Of a stretch of DNA of 64,000 nucleotides, positions 48,313 through 53,979 are shown piece after piece. The notes beneath the pieces are model-generated. The model was not told the origin of the DNA. It made no database searches and saw nothing but the letters and a program-made list of their open reading frames with translations. How positions within the stretch are numbered: the stretch's first letter is position 1; every line of letters begins with the position of its first letter. The position numbers and the translations under genes were made by a program. The stretch is from Williamsia deligens (lineage in GTDB: Bacteria; Actinomycetota; Actinomycetes; Mycobacteriales; Mycobacteriaceae): NCBI RefSeq assembly GCF_024171765.1, contig NZ_JAMTCI010000001.1, forward strand, positions 2,280,796 through 2,344,795, in the 5' to 3' direction.

Positions 48313-49460
48313 CCACCGCACTCGGCGGCGGCGTCTGGACCGACCACCGCGCCGACCGCAGCTGGACGCAGAACGCGATCCGCCTCATCGAGGCCGACGC
48401 GACCCGCAGCGCGGACACGCATCTGCTGCGGTTCCCGTTGCCGACGTGGAGCACCTCCTCGGGGGGCATCGACCTGTATCTCAAGGACGAGAGCACCCAC
48501 ATCACCGGATCCCTCAAGCACCGCTTGGCGCGGTCGCTGTTCCTCTACGCGCTGTGCAACGGGTGGATCCGCCAGGGGGCGCCGGTGATCGAGGCGTCGT
48601 CCGGGTCGACGGCGGTGTCCGAGGCGTACTTCGCGGCGCTCATCGGGGTGCCGTTCGTGGCGGTGATGCCGCGGACCACCTCGGCCAGCAAGGTCGCGCT
48701 CATCGAGCGGCAGGGCGGTCGGTGCCACTTCGTCGACGCCGCCGGCGAGGTGTACACCGCCGCAGCCGATCTGGCCCGCCAGACCGGCGGTCACTTCATC
48801 GACCAGTTCACGATGGCCGAGCGCGCCACCGACTGGCGCGGCAACAACAACATCGCCGAGTCGATCTTCACCCAACTCGCCGACGAGCGGCACCCGGTGC
48901 CGACGTGGGTGGTGGTCGGCGCGGGCACCGGCGGGACGTCGGCGACCATCGGTCGCTACATCCGGTACCGCCGTCACCCGACGTGGCTCGCCGTCGTCGA
49001 CCCCGAGAACTCCGTGTTCGCACCGGCGTACGCGACCGGCGACCCGACGGTGTCGTCGTCGACCGGCTCCCGGATCGAGGGGATCGGCCGTCCCCGCGTC
49101 GAGCCGTCGTTCGTCTCCCAGGTCATCGACGCGATGGTGACCGTCCCGGACGCGGCGTCGATCGCGACCGCCCGGCTCGTCAGCGACGTCCTCGGGCGGC
49201 GGGTGGGCGGATCCACCGGCACCAACATGTGGGGTGCCTTCGCGCTCGTGGCGCAGATGGCCGCGGCCGGGCGGCCGGGCAGCGTCGTGACCCTGCTCTG
49301 CGACGCCGGTGACCGCTACGGCGACACCTACTTCGACGACGCGTGGGTCGCCGCCCAGGGGATCTCCCTCGACGCCCCGCGCGCCGTCCTCGACGAGTTC
49401 TGGGCCGACGGCTCCTGGCCGACAGGTTCTGGGCCGACCGGTTCCGGACCCACGGCGTGA
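48309..49460 (+). CDS. PLP-dependent cysteine synthase-fold enzyme, possible L-cysteine desulfhydrase (Cds1-like)
   Basis: This 383-residue fold-type II PLP enzyme has the Lys in [14 protein letters not shown], the substrate loop [17 protein letters not shown], and the phosphate-binding glycine loop [30 protein letters not shown] follows near the C-terminus. The pattern matches the group including the mycobacterial cysteine desulfhydrase Cds1, which releases H2S from cysteine. Cysteine synthase is the alternative. The C-terminus is extended by three 15-bp repeats encoding GS(W/G)PT. It starts with GTG overlapping the DUF4229 gene and ends overlapping the ABC ATPase. Confidence 0.85.
49410..49454 (+). 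repeat. Three tandem 15-bp repeats at the 3' end of the PLP enzyme gene
   Basis: Three degenerate units (49410-49424, 49425-49439, 49440-49454) encode [10 protein letters not shown] and GSGPT. They directly precede the overlapped start of the next gene. Confidence 0.7.
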
Positions 49461-50146
49461 CGGGGGCGGGGGGCCCGGCGATCGACGCGGTCGACCTGGT
49501 GCGCGAGTACCGCATGGGCGACGCGACCGTGCGCGCTCTGGACGGCCTGACGCTGCGGTTGGACGCCGGGCAGTTCGTGTCGGTCGTCGGACCGTCCGGG
49601 GCGGGCAAGTCGACGCTGCTGCACGTGATGGGGGCGCTCGACGTCCCGGACTCGGGTCGCATCCTCGTCGACGGCAGCGACATCTCCGCCATGGACGACG
49701 ACGAGCTGTCGACGTTCCGGCGTCGCCGCGTCGGGTTCGTGTTCCAGTTCTTCAACCTCGTGCCGACGTTGTCGGCGTGGGAGAACGTCGCGCTGCCCCG
49801 ACTGCTCGACGGGACACCGTTGCGGCGCAGCCGGACCGACGCGCAGGAACTCCTCGACCGTGTCGGGCTGGGCAACCGGGCCGACCACCGACCCGGTGAG
49901 CTGTCCGGCGGCCAGATGCAGCGCGTGGCCATCGCCCGCTCGCTCATCATGGGTCCGCGGATCCTCCTCGCCGACGAGCCGACGGGGAACCTGGACTCGC
50001 AGACCGGTGCGGCCATCCTCGACCTGCTGGGCGACGTCGCCCGCGACGGGGAGGGCCGCCTGGTGGTGATGGTGACCCACGACGTGAACGCCGCGGAGGT
50101 CGCAGACCGCACCGTCACCGTGCGCGACGGCCGCATCGCGTCGTGA
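49457..50146 (+). CDS. MacB/LolD-type ABC transporter ATPase
   Basis: This 229-residue ATPase has Walker [11 protein letters not shown] loop QFFNL, signature [14 protein letters not shown], Walker [13 protein letters not shown] and the H loop VTHD. The VRALDGLTL start and EPTGNLDS are typical of the type VII (mechanotransmission) FtsE/LolD/MacB class. It starts with GTG overlapping the upstream stop and its stop overlaps the permease. It powers the large permease that follows. Confidence 0.93.
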
Positions 50147-52719
50147 GCTCCCCGGCACCCCAGACCCCGGCACCCCTGGCCCGCGGCCTCGCCGCGGTCG
50201 GGCGCCTGCGTGTGCTCAACCTGCGCGAGACACGGACGCACCAGCTGCGTCTGATCACGTCACTGCTGGTGATCGCGGTGTCGTCGCTGCTGCTGGTCGC
50301 GGTGCTCAGCACGTACGGGTCCATCACCGACTCGGTCTCGCGGTTGTCCGCCACGATTGCCGGTGACGCCGACCTCGACGTCGGTGCGATCGGCGACGCC
50401 GGCGTCGACGCGTCACTGGTCGGCGAGATCCGCCGGGGGGTGCCGCAGGCGTCGACCGTGGCGCCGCTGGTGCGCTCGTCGGCGACGCTCGGGACCGGGT
50501 CCGATCGCGTCGCCGTGCTCGGCGCCGACACCTCCGTCCTCGGCCTCGGCGGCGCGCTGCGGTCTGTCCTGGCGTCCGGCTCCGGTGGTTCCACGACTCG
50601 CTTCGACCCGGCCACCTCGGTCGCGGTGGGGCCGGGGCTGGGACTGTCGGTGGGGGACCGCATCCGTGTCGGCGGCGTACCGGTGACCGTCGCCGAGGTG
50701 GTCCGCTCCGACGCCGCGCGCCCGATCGCGTCGGGTCGGTTCATCGCCGCGTTCCTGCCACTCGCACAACGCATCACGGGGGAGTCCGGTCGGGTCGACT
50801 CCGTCCTCGTCGCCGCCGCGCCCGGTGTCTCGACCGACGATCTGCGCGCCCGCGTCGAGGCTGTCGTGGAGGGACGCGCCGTCGTCAACGACCCCGACTA
50901 CCGCGCGGCACAGGTCGCGACGGCCAGTGCGGTGACCCGTGATTCGACGCTGCTCGTCGCCCTGATCTCCGTCGTGATCGCGGCGTTCCTCGTCTTCAAC
51001 ACCATGACGATGGCGGTCGCGTCACGCCGCCCCGTGCTCGCGATGGTGCGGGCGATCGGTGGGCGACGGGGACCGCTGGTCCGCGACCTCATCGGCGAGG
51101 CCGCGGTCATCGGGGCGCTCGGCGGCCTCATCGGCGTGCCGCTGGGGATGCTCGCCGGACGCTGGATCATCGGACGGCTGCCGTCGGCGAACATCGACAG
51201 CGTCTCGGCGACGGTCACGTACTCGGTCGCCTGGTACGCGCCCGTGGTGGCGCTCGTCGCGTGCGTCGCGGCCTGTGCGGCGGCCAGTCTCCTGGCGGCG
51301 CGGTCGGTGCTGCGCCTCTCGCCGGTCGAGGCGATGTCGCCGGTGCAGTCCGACGAGCAGTCGCGCGGCTCCACCCGACTCGAGATCGCCGCCGGCGCCG
51401 CCGGTCTGGGCGCGATCGCCGTCGGCTGGGTGATCGCCTACACCGTCACCGGGCGTGCGGTGTTCTCCGCCGCGGTCCTCTCCAGCATCGGTGGGCTGCT
51501 GGTCTTCTTCGCCCTGACACGGCCGATCGTGGCGGCGATCGTGGGTCTCGCCCGCCGCATCGGTGGGCCCGGCCAACTCGCTGCTGTGACCGCCGAACGC
51601 ACGCCGCGGCGGGTGTGGACGACGGCGATGACGGTGGCCGTCGCGGTGTCGGTGGGCATCGGGACGTCCGGGGCGATGAACGACCTGATCGGGTCGGTGT
51701 CCGGCGCGCTCGACGGCGTCGGCGATCCCGACCTCTACGTCTCCACCCAGCCCGTCAGCGACATCCCCGCCGGACCCGTCCTCGATCCGGCTGTGCGCGA
51801 GGCGGTCTCGACCGTCCCAGGTGTGTCGCGGGTCGTCGGCGGGCAGTGGGCCTATCTCAACCTCGGTGCGGCGCGCGTCGTCGTGCAGGGGCTGACGCCC
51901 GGCGTGCAGTCGCCGTTTGTCAAGCGCGCGTCGCCGCAGGTGGTGCGACAGGCCATCGCCGGCGACGGCATCGTGTTGTCGAAGGTGCTGTCGGCGACGG
52001 TCGGCAAGGGTGTCGGCGACGAGGTCCGACTCGCTACGCCCGTCGGATACCGGACGCTGCGGGTGCTGCAGGTCGTCGACTACCCGGCGATCGAGTCGGG
52101 GACGGCGGCGATGTCGTTCGACCTGCTGCAGCAGTGGTTCCAGCGGTCGGGGGACACGTTCCTGCAGGTGACGATCGCGCCGGGCGCCGACCCGGCACAG
52201 GTGCGCACCGCGGTGACGCGGGCCGCGCAGGGTGCTGTCGTCGGGCAGGCCGGTGCGGTGCGGCCGTACGTCTACACCGGCCCGGAGACGCTCGACGCGA
52301 CGCGCGCGTCGGTGGAGCAGTCGGGATCGTTCACCATCGCCATCCAGTGGATCGTCGCGCTGGTCGCGGCCGTCGCGCTGCTCAACACGCTGCTGCTGTC
52401 GGTGATCGAACGGCGACGCGAGATCGGTGTGTTGCGGGCGATGGGTGCGTCGCGGCGGTTCGCCTCGCGCATGGTGGTGGCCGAGGCGGCCGCCATCGCC
52501 GGGGTCGGTGCCGTGCTGGGTGTCGCGAGCGGGGAACTGCTGCACGCCGTCAGCGACCAGGTTCTCGGCGTCACCACCGCGGTCTCCATCGACTACCGGC
52601 CGCAGCTGTTCACGGTGGTCTACGTCGTCGCGGCGTTCGTGCTGTGCGTCGTCGGGGCGGTGGTCCCCGCCCTGCGCGCCGGCCGCCTCACCATCGTCGA
52701 CGCCATCGCGGACGAGTAG
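50143..52719 (+). CDS. FtsX-like ABC permease with two core domains
   Basis: The 858-residue duplicated FtsX-family permease has an N-terminal span (LRLITSLLVIAVSSLLLVAVLST) and an outer domain. A first three-span block (about 265-400, with VASRRPVLAMVRAIGGRRG) comes next, then two further spans, a second outer domain, and a final block (about 725-850, VIERRREIGVLRAMGASRRF). It resembles DUF214-type permeases of actinobacteria that export or remodel envelope components rather than importing solutes. The cargo is unknown. A repeat array follows the stop. Confidence 0.9.
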   Translation: MSSPAPQTPAPLARGLAAVGRLRVLNLRETRTHQLRLITSLLVIAVSSLLLVAVLSTYGSITDSVSRLSATIAGDADLDVGAIGDAGVDASLVGEIRRGVPQASTVAPLVRSSATLGTGSDRVAVLGADTSVLGLGGALRSVLASGSGGSTTRFDPATSVAVGPGLGLSVGDRIRVGGVPVTVAEVVRSDAARPIASGRFIAAFLPLAQRITGESGRVDSVLVAAAPGVSTDDLRARVEAVVEGRAVVNDPDYRAAQVATASAVTRDSTLLVALISVVIAAFLVFNTMTMAVASRRPVLAMVRAIGGRRGPLVRDLIGEAAVIGALGGLIGVPLGMLAGRWIIGRLPSANIDSVSATVTYSVAWYAPVVALVACVAACAAASLLAARSVLRLSPVEAMSPVQSDEQSRGSTRLEIAAGAAGLGAIAVGWVIAYTVTGRAVFSAAVLSSIGGLLVFFALTRPIVAAIVGLARRIGGPGQLAAVTAERTPRRVWTTAMTVAVAVSVGIGTSGAMNDLIGSVSGALDGVGDPDLYVSTQPVSDIPAGPVLDPAVREAVSTVPGVSRVVGGQWAYLNLGAARVVVQGLTPGVQSPFVKRASPQVVRQAIAGDGIVLSKVLSATVGKGVGDEVRLATPVGYRTLRVLQVVDYPAIESGTAAMSFDLLQQWFQRSGDTFLQVTIAPGADPAQVRTAVTRAAQGAVVGQAGAVRPYVYTGPETLDATRASVEQSGSFTIAIQWIVALVAAVALLNTLLLSVIERRREIGVLRAMGASRRFASRMVVAEAAAIAGVGAVLGVASGELLHAVSDQVLGVTTAVSIDYRPQLFTVVYVVAAFVLCVVGAVVPALRAGRLTIVDAIADE

Positions 52720-52742: not shown

Positions 52743-52886
52743 CGTCGAGTGGGCGGTTGGAGACGTTCGTTGGGCGGTTAGAGACGTTCGTTGGGCGGTA
52801 GGAGCCGTCGAGTGGGCAGTTAGCCGATCAGCCGCCCACTCGACGTCCATAGCCGCCCACTCGACGTGTAAACCGCCCAGTCGACG
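52743..52886. repeat. 21-bp phased repeat array with inverted halves
   Basis: Four units related to CGTCGAGTGGGCGGTT begin at 52743, 52764, 52785 and 52806, exactly 21 bases apart. Three units in opposite orientation (CCGCCCACTCGACG) follow at about 52831, 52852 and 52872. The halves are mirror images around 52826, so the RNA could fold into a long hairpin. It lies between the FtsX gene and the HTH/Clp-N operon. Confidence 0.9.
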
Positions 52887-52914
52887 GGGTGGTAACGACC
52901 GCGCGTCAAGAAAG

Positions 52915-52938
52915 GTTGACAACCCTCGCCGTGTCAAC
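52915..52938. promoter_or_regulatory. Inverted-repeat operator on the HTH/Clp-N promoter
   Basis: GTTGACA-N10-TGTCAAC is a perfect inverted repeat with 7-base arms. It covers the -35 hexamer TTGACA and most of the spacer, so a bound dimer would block transcription. Confidence 0.8.
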
Positions 52939-52945
52939 ATAACCT
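52916..52945 (+). promoter_or_regulatory. Promoter of the HTH/Clp-N operon
   Basis: TTGACA (52916-52921), an 18-base spacer and TAACCT (52940-52945) form one of the best promoters in the window. The -10 ends 7 bases before ATG 52953, so the mRNA is likely leaderless. Confidence 0.8.
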
Positions 52946-52952
52946 GACGCCC

Positions 52953-53174
52953 ATGCACGACGAGAACGACGACATCACCACCGCGGCCGCGAGTACCGAC
53001 CCCGCTCAGGGGCTCGCTGCGGTCCGGGCTCTGCGAACGCTCGCCGACCGCCTCGAGGAGGTCCAGGTCGGCAATGCGCGGGAGCAGGGATGGAGTTGGC
53101 AGGCGATCGCCGAGGTCCTCGGGATCAGCCGTCAGGCCGTGCATCAGAAGCACTCGACCCCGAAGGGACACTGA
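52953..53174 (+). CDS. Small HTH protein paired with a Clp-N gene
   Basis: The first 20 of 73 residues are acidic. Then LAAVRALRTLADRLEEVQVGNAREQGWSWQAIAEVLGISRQAVHQKHS contains a homeodomain-like/sigma-70 region 4-like helix-turn-helix (WSWQAIAEVLGISRQAVHQK). It is probably the repressor acting at the inverted repeat on its own promoter. The next gene starts one base after its stop, so the two are a coupled pair. The pairing of this HTH with a Clp-N protein recurs in actinobacteria, but the function is not described to my knowledge. Confidence 0.85.
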   Translation: MHDENDDITTAAASTDPAQGLAAVRALRTLADRLEEVQVGNAREQGWSWQAIAEVLGISRQAVHQKHSTPKGH

Positions 53175-53175
53175 C

Positions 53176-53979
53176 ATGTTCGACCACATGACCCGCGAGA
53201 ACAGGCACATCCTGTCCTTCGCCATGGAAGAGGCCGCCGACCTCGGGCACGCCCAACTCGGCACCGATCACCTGATCCTGGGCATGCTCTGCAACGCCCG
53301 CAGCGACGTGTTCGCACTGCTCACCGAGCAGGGCTTCACGCTCGCCACCGCCCGCGACACCGTCCGCGAGATCCACGGCGACGACGACGGCACCGACAGC
53401 GCCGGCGCGGAAGCCGACGCCGAGCAGGTCGCCGACGACCGCGAAGCCCTCAAGTCCGTCGGCATCGACCTCGACAAGGTCGCCGACGCCATCAAGCGCG
53501 CGTTCGGCACCGACATCACCGACGGGTGGTCGAAGCGCGGCCCGGAACGTCGTGGCCGCGGCGGACCGCACCGCCACCACCATCACGACCACGGCGGTCG
53601 CGACCGCGATCACCGTCGCGGACGCGGCGGTCCGTGGGATGGCCCCGATGTCGGACCGGGGGCGCGTCGCGGCCCCGGTGGACCCGGCGGATGGGACGAC
53701 GACGAGGCCGGGCCGTGGCAGCACGGCCGGGGCCGACGCGGCCCGCGCGGTCGTGGCGGCCCGTGGGGTCGCCCGCGGTTCTCGGCCTCGGCACGCGCGG
53801 CTCTCGGCGAGGCGGTCCGCATCGCCCGCGAGTCCGACGATGACGAGCGCGGTGGCCGGCTACGCGCCGAGCACGTGCTGCTCGGGATCCTGGCCGTCGG
53901 CGACGAGCGTTCGCGCCGGCTGATCGAGTCGGTCACCACCGTGGATCAGCTGCGCGCCGCGCTCACCGCGGCGGTCTGA
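53176..53979 (+). CDS. Stand-alone Clp N-domain protein with Gly/Arg/His-rich linker
   Basis: An N-terminal Clp repeat domain (about 1-120; FDHMTRENRHILSFAMEEAADLGHAQLGTDHLILGML) and a second repeat at the C-terminus (about 200-267; RFSASARAALGEAVRIARE then RLRAEHVLLGILAVGD) are split by about 75 residues. These are almost only Gly, Arg, His, Asp and Pro, with HRHHHHDH. No AAA+ module is present, so it is not ClpC. Clp-N domains bind adaptors and substrates. It could be an adaptor, decoy or sensor for Clp proteolysis, and the His-rich linker could bind metal. That is inference. Confidence 0.87.
   Translation: MFDHMTRENRHILSFAMEEAADLGHAQLGTDHLILGMLCNARSDVFALLTEQGFTLATARDTVREIHGDDDGTDSAGAEADAEQVADDREALKSVGIDLDKVADAIKRAFGTDITDGWSKRGPERRGRGGPHRHHHHDHGGRDRDHRRGRGGPWDGPDVGPGARRGPGGPGGWDDDEAGPWQHGRGRRGPRGRGGPWGRPRFSASARAALGEAVRIARESDDDERGGRLRAEHVLLGILAVGDERSRRLIESVTTVDQLRAALTAAV

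Follow-up and report, generated by a model that had tools for sequence, protein, structure and literature searches.

A gene pair encoding a small HTH protein and a stand-alone Clp-N protein as a probable split counterpart of ClpC2 in Actinobacteria

The N-terminal domain of ClpC is a docking surface for adaptors, damaged substrates and antibiotics such as cyclomarin. ClpC1 is under study as a target of degraders and antibacterial cyclic peptides, from which ClpC2 is known to offer an escape. A 64-kb stretch of the Williamsia deligens genome (the window, meaning the whole stretch of DNA analyzed here) carries a gene for a Clp-N protein directly behind a small HTH gene, which raises two questions. 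What is the use of a Clp-N protein without an AAA+ module, and why is it paired with an HTH protein?

A single base separates the two ORFs, as an earlier note on this DNA had reported, and they lie in different frames (Table 1). Their promoter consists of TTGACA (52916-52921), an 18-base spacer and TAACCT (52940-52945), the elements named in that note; because this -10 box places the start site approximately at the ATG of the HTH gene, the transcript would be leaderless, judged by the position of the start site. A Clp_N family search of the genome returned only the Clp-N protein of the pair and frames of 845 and 875 aa, which by size and match are probably ClpC and ClpB. An HTH profile search gave one match, and neither search found a fused ClpC2 in this genome. 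The HTH gene is under purifying selection, with dN of 0.012 versus dS of 0.30 and 0.17 in comparisons of the window HTH with two close relatives (two of three were used, the third differing in length).

Table 1. Features of the HTH/Clp-N locus, in positions of the window
Feature	Position	Strand	Remarks
Operator O1, CGTCAA-GAAAGG-TTGACA	52904..52921	+	18-bp palindrome; right arm is the -35 element
Inverted repeat of the earlier note	52915..52938	+	right arm of O1 plus left arm of O2; unlikely to be the binding unit by itself
Operator O2, TGTCAA-CATAAC-CTGACG	52932..52949	+	18-bp palindrome; overlaps the -10 element TAACCT, ends 3 nt before the ATG
HTH gene	52953..53174	+	73 aa; homologous to the N-terminal domain of ClpC2, predicted to act as a dimeric autorepressor
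HTH recognition helix, SRQAVHQKH	53127..53153	+	aa 59-67
Clp-N gene	53176..53979	+	267 aa; stand-alone, ClpC N-domain-like, without AAA+ module
Clp repeat 1	53176..53379	+	aa 1-68; contains the residue corresponding to Phe2 in the antibiotic pocket of ClpC1
Inserted helical hairpin	53401..53505	+	aa 76-110; conserved GIDLDxV motif in split Clp-N proteins
Linker, Gly/Arg/His/Asp-rich	53524..53775	+	aa 117-200; low-confidence in the model; length and His run not conserved
Clp repeat 2	53776..53976	+	aa 201-267; aa 202 is the equivalent of ClpC1 Phe80

Apart from the Clp-N gene, the nearest neighbors of the HTH gene are a UbiA-family (MenA-like) gene and a gene for an FtsX permease. We matched menA in 62 loci of the family, which we regard as synteny, no functional link being seen. 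The FtsX-like permease gene (PF02687) and a gene resembling an ABC ATPase by eye lie directly upstream of the pair (49343-52719). This upstream permease was matched by phmmer in 24 loci, the named ones being Williamsia and Gordonia, within flanks of just ~1.5 to 3 kb, and it is probably local synteny and not a conserved partner. Between the permease gene and the HTH promoter, positions 52743-52887 hold an inverted array with a 21-bp-period repeat (CGTCGAGTGGGCGGTT and its complement). Exact copies of the repeat core CCGCCCACTCGACG number 60 in the genome; many of them are grouped in small clusters, and some are inverted. The array is REP-like or terminator-like in look.

The earlier note took a perfect inverted repeat, GTTGACA-N10-TGTCAAC, for the operator of the pair. 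This repeat is exact and lies over the promoter, but the operator unit is better described as two tandem N6 palindromes, O1 and O2 (Table 1). With up to three mismatches allowed, the N10 repeat has one match in the window versus 1.13 expected, so its weight lies in the exactness of the match; TTGACA-N10-TGTCAA occurs at two places in the 4.41-Mb genome, the pair promoter and contig C3. The exact pattern YGTCAA-N6-YTGACR has two sites in the same 4.41 Mb, both in the pair promoter and none elsewhere, and by this exact pattern there is no wider regulon.

How well is this architecture kept among relatives? Promoters were scored for four half-sites with free spacings (maximum, 24) in 149 split loci, or 142 after removal of seven duplicates. 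The W. deligens promoter scored 21; none of 345 base-shuffled upstream regions exceeded 18, the best of them reaching that value, and the best of 138 downstream control regions reached 16. N6/N6 was the best parse in 139 of the 142 non-redundant pairs, and 136 of them scored 20 or more. Among the six poorer loci, three have only the proximal palindrome clear (L049, L054 and L186, the last still within the 139), two have one weak arm each (L159 and L183), and L171 alone showed no tandem palindrome in this scoring. The earlier note had proposed that homologous pairs lacking the repeat would refute autoregulation, and these counts over the 142 pairs give the outcome of that check. The spacer between the two palindromes is 9 in 82 loci, 10 in 54 and 11 in 6, which sets a -35/-10 distance of 17 to 19 in the layout of the split loci; among the 148 loci with a score of at least 19 (duplicates included), 126 have a TANNNT box where one is expected. 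The spacing within TTGACA-N10-TGTCAA therefore differs between relatives, whereas the N6 arm spacing hardly changes, and we rejected the N10 repeat as the binding unit.

The pair itself is widespread. Searching 151 genomes of the GTDB family for Clp-N gave matches in 150, many of them to ClpC itself. We examined 70 family loci, 30 given as loci and 40 from the weaker matches, and found an HTH ORF beside Clp-N in 69, L077 being the exception. When named genomes were searched with the HTH alignment, the best 80 of at least 506 relatives were taken. Each of the 80 is followed by Clp-N, the gaps ranging from -8 to 79 nt; these best 80 come from Williamsia, Gordonia, Nocardia, Rhodococcus, Mycobacterium, Kitasatospora, Streptomyces, Actinomadura, Cellulosimicrobium and others, with Williamsia serinedens the nearest named relative. 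The gap falls between -8 and +8 nt in 104 of the 142 non-redundant pairs and outside this range, up to 134 nt, in 38. Counting the HTH alone, its profile at E 1e-15 matched 171 of 394 class genomes and 58 of 296 genomes of a phylum sample, some of these matches lying in other classes. Locus L054 was left out of the list for the split-HTH alignment (A1, 49 HTHs), L128 and the seven duplicate loci were left out of the protein counts or loci, respectively, and L171 was kept. The autoregulated HTH/Clp-N module of the earlier note thus holds up in its main part, as both the pair and the palindromic operator over its promoter are conserved across Actinobacteria, and the exact form of this operator recurs nowhere else in the genome; the operator unit had been misassigned. 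No phage record matched the HTH. Among 72,556 plasmid records, 7 carry a relative of it, and one of the 7 is apparently from outside Actinobacteria. One HTH relative (48.5% over 66 aa) is located at 51488-51685 of plasmid NZ_CP021745.1 of Agarilytica rhodophyticola, a genus that we take to be gammaproteobacterial.

Profile comparison relates the HTH protein to the N-terminal domain of ClpC2 (alignment A1 versus A4 with hhalign, 96.9%, E 1.7e-10). The A4 profile, built on the ClpC2 N-domain, finds PDB entry 8ADA at E 7.3e-37; 8ADA was not among the matches of direct PDB searches with the HTH sequence or the A1 profile, and Foldseek with the HTH model gave no significant match. The residues equivalent to the salt bridge D46-R57, which holds the ClpC2 dimer together, are D/E32 and R43, and they are kept in all 149 split HTHs. 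The recognition helix reads S/T-R/K-Q-A-V-H-Q/K-K-H/Y in the split form, with one exception, and Q61, A62, V63, H64 and K66 are present in 149 of 149 aligned split HTHs (seven duplicates included); in the fused form, it reads S/T-K-Q-A-A-Q-K-R-F, two positions showing one exception each. In an HTH tree limited by its few columns, the fused proteins form one clade (SH-aLRT 99) and the split ones do not cleanly do so. From these sequences, we strongly infer that the HTH protein represses its own operon.

The HTH protein also matches the antitoxin RelI (9sdc; E 0.003 by phmmer and 2.2e-4 by profile), and the pair could then be read as a toxin-antitoxin-like module. The small and often overlapping genes, the apparent autorepression and the few relatives on plasmids agree with such a module, but the partner protein matches no family other than Clp_N above the cut-off, the frequent place beside menA is unlike that of a mobile element, and phage records hold no match. 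We regard this reading as very improbable.

The Clp_N family (PF02861) matches the partner protein twice, and AAA+ families gave no match to it at E 1 or better, the ORF ending at 53979. The description of a Clp-N protein without AAA+ module is therefore borne out, as is that of a Gly/Arg/His/Asp-rich linker with an HHHH run between its Clp repeats. In the structure model, this linker (aa 117-200) is probably disordered. A long linker (protein of >230 aa) is present in 43 of the 142 proteins and absent from 99, and HHHH occurs in only 1 of the 43, that of W. deligens; we therefore rejected the metal sensing by the His run that had been suggested earlier. The inserted hairpin at aa 76-110 resembles the end of Clp repeat 1.

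Foldseek with the Clp-N model placed ClpC N-domains first (best E 3.4e-5), with a poor whole-length rmsd. Both aromatic residues of the cyclomarin pocket are well kept in the split proteins, Phe2 in 133 and Phe80 in 129 of 142; at the Phe80 position, 14 of 18 fused proteins have Tyr. The position of ClpC1 Glu89 is Gly in W. deligens and Glu in only 92 of 142 split relatives, so the range of ligands may differ. In a tree with 11 ClpC N-domains, the ClpC, split and fused sequences each form one clade (supports 96/80, 99/92 and 100/100, respectively); because the tree is unrooted, it is compatible with one origin or two origins of the split and fused forms from ClpC. A smaller tree, with one ClpC and a long ClpB branch, placed ClpB inside the fused clade and was set aside.

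Is the Clp-N protein a true ClpC adaptor that changes substrate choice, as the earlier note had supposed, with its dose controlled by the HTH protein? Being N-domain-like without AAA+ agrees with this role, and Arabidopsis ClpT1 and ClpT2 are among the fold matches of the model. A copy of the ClpC N-domain would, however, compete with ClpC for partners rather than bind ClpC, and we know of no bacterial ClpC adaptor that is itself such a copy. We therefore consider an adaptor improbable. A modulation of ClpC substrate choice is possible and is better stated as the work of a decoy of the ClpC N-domain.

Such a decoy has been described in fused form. ClpC2 represses its own leaderless promoter via CGTCAAC-n5-GTTGACG sites, which are often tandem; cyclomarin releases this repression, and ClpC2 protects as a sponge that shields ClpC1 (PMC10030653). 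Our weak HTH matches, mostly frames of 228 to 271 aa, gave 20 loci, of which 19 are fused HTH and Clp-N genes and one (L125) is not. An arm spacing of 7, CGTCAA-N7-TTGACG, is the best parse in 18 of the 19 fused loci, with one clear site in L114; L128 has no clear operator site and looks like a damaged fused gene. The published ClpC2 operator is the same as this N7 sequence. We then compared 15 genomes, the 14 that carry both systems and W. deligens. Tandem N6 sites stand at the pair in all 15, and tandem N7 sites at the clpC2 promoter in 13 of the 14 two-system genomes, the other (G041) having one N7 site. No N7 site was found at any pair and no N6 site at any clpC2 promoter in these genomes, in which scattered N6 and N7 sites also occur elsewhere. 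Thus, the split and fused circuits are apparently insulated by one base of arm spacing.

Further members of the superfamily were noticed. Two loci (L215 and L217, in genomes G065 and G144) have an HTH of another subfamily, followed by an ORF that is Clp-N-like by eye, and other palindromes, one built on TATCAAC...GTTGATA; they may represent a third decoy circuit, controlled by an operator of its own. In three more loci (L212, L213 and L218, in G008, G129 and G055), the HTH gene also belongs to this superfamily but has just one N6 palindrome close by, and inspection by eye showed no Clp-N partner.

Which part of these proteins reads DNA? In the ClpC2 report, the N-domain is called a four-helix bundle for dimerization, and DNA reading is assigned to the Clp-N part because an R185A/R189A mutant showed weaker DNA binding (PMC10030653). 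The crystallized fragments given there comprise residues 4-72 (8ADA) and 94-252 (PMC10030653). Since 8ADA ends at residue 72 and the other fragment begins at 94, residues 73-93 with the recognition helix are in neither structure. The position equivalent to R189 is Arg in 33 of 142 split proteins versus 16 of 18 fused ones, and that of R185 in 105 of 142 and 12 of 18. The rare retention of the R189 Arg in split proteins and the place of the recognition helix outside both fragments favor the HTH as the putative DNA reader in both systems. An HTH region in ClpC2 has already been noted in the RelI paper (PMC13284704). If the HTH does read DNA in both, the published assignment to Clp-N would need revision.

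The same residues bear on a simpler explanation, in which the HTH protein is a homeostatic autorepressor and Clp-N only an effector, a holdase or a competitor for ClpC adaptors that senses nothing, with induction by loss of the HTH protein, for example through ClpCP degradation or heat. HTH and Clp-N are separate polypeptides, and because the R189-position Arg is not kept, the split Clp-N need not touch DNA; heat induction of ClpC2 by about twofold (PMC10030653) also agrees. On the other hand, the R185 Arg is kept in most split proteins, and the near-constant pairing with mostly tight spacing suggests an obligate partnership. We judge this explanation unlikely, though the strongest of the alternatives.

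The reading that we prefer, and consider probable, is that the pair is a split, two-gene counterpart of ClpC2, made of an HTH autorepressor and a Clp-N sensor and sponge; it looks like a split ClpC2 because the HTH is homologous to the ClpC2 N-terminal domain and Clp-N resembles the ClpC N-domain. The HTH protein would dimerize as the ClpC2 N-terminal domain does, and the dimer would bind both tandem palindromes over the -35 and -10 elements and block RNA polymerase, keeping its own operon off, with no other target as far as the exact pattern tells. Clp-N, as a detached copy of the ClpC N-domain, would act on the HTH protein in trans, helping to keep the operon off in a complex with it or as a corepressor. 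Once a ClpC-targeting molecule or an unfolded protein occupies the docking face of Clp-N, repression would be lifted, more decoy would be made, and ClpC would be shielded. DNA binding and repression by the HTH protein are likely on homology and operator architecture, and ligand sensing, the decoy function and a physical HTH/Clp-N contact are suggested by analogy with ClpC2. Binding need not mean sensing, since ilamycin and an ecumicin analogue bind M. tuberculosis ClpC2 without inducing it (PMC12913811). More broadly, and with confidence a little short of even, we propose that there are two paralogous ClpC-decoy circuits in Actinobacteria, a phylum-wide split circuit and the fused ClpC2, which coexist in one cell and are kept apart by N6/N7 spacing and a matched recognition helix, and that in both the HTH would read DNA and Clp-N would sense the ligand.

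Has a split pair already been met in M. smegmatis? A review has cyclomarin and ecumicin binding ClpC2 and ClpC3 with comparable affinities (PMC10864484), both proteins are said to dampen degraders in M. smegmatis (PMC10914731), and MSMEG_3761 is named clpC3 in a cold-stress table that lists 10.94, 4.57 and 4.31 for it (PMC10454040). Two 16-bp palindromic motifs at -47 and -19 precede MSMEG_3760 and were not bound by the TetR regulator under study (PMC5660060). Placed with N10 between them and a single base ahead of the ATG, two 18-bp sites would start at -47 and -19, and the motifs as described fit the N6/N10 tandem operator. MSMEG_3760/3761 is therefore a lead for the HTH/Clp-N pair of M. smegmatis; if so, the RT-PCR result that the two genes are separate monocistronic units there (PMC5660060) speaks against a single operon. 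In the open-licence literature, we found no paper naming MSMEG_3760 as a repressor of clpC3, no paper describing the HTH/Clp-N pair and no binding, repression or induction data for it. The statement in the earlier note that no described function is known for the pair is thus right only in part, since the fused ClpC2 has one and a ClpC3 has been named in M. smegmatis.

A second and apparently much wider-spread decoy circuit would mean that inducible ClpC protection is old and general in Actinobacteria, and a split ClpC2 counterpart would go some way toward explaining the means by which many soil bacteria detect and sequester ClpC-attacking molecules. The N6/N7 operators would be a clean natural case of paralogous repressors, seemingly insulated by operator spacing. 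Because the split form separates the DNA reader from the sensor, it can be asked directly which part of ClpC2 reads DNA and how the ligand signal passes.

Among known systems, mycobacterial ClpC2 (Rv2667 type) is the closest. It shares a homologous HTH/dimer domain and a ClpC N-domain-like part, GTCAA/TTGAC operators, often in tandem, that cover the -35 and -10 elements of a leaderless promoter, and aromatic cyclomarin contacts, F96 and F172, that are matched by Phe2 and Phe202 in the W. deligens Clp-N. It differs in being one polypeptide instead of two ORFs, in its N7 rather than N6 operators, in its recognition helix (SKQAAQKRF) and in its cyclomarin-contacting Glu, E181, which aligns with Gly in W. 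deligens; the split Clp-N also falls in its own clade. ClpC3 of M. smegmatis, compared by description only, is likewise a small Clp protein said to bind cyclomarin and ecumicin (PMC10864484). RelI of RelS-RelI is a small HTH protein similar in sequence to the HTH of the pair and to the ClpC2 N-domain, but its partner is the RNase toxin RelS, whereas the gene adjacent to our HTH encodes Clp-N and not RelS; the authors of the RelI paper found no inverted repeats upstream (PMC13284704). The N-terminal domain of ClpC1 shares the Clp-N fold with Phe2 and Phe80. Unlike ClpC1, the Clp-N of the pair has an inserted hairpin and, in the W. deligens clade, a long linker, and it lacks the AAA+ modules that follow the N-domain in ClpC1 and in the class I Clp/Hsp100 ATPases in general (ClpC and ClpB).
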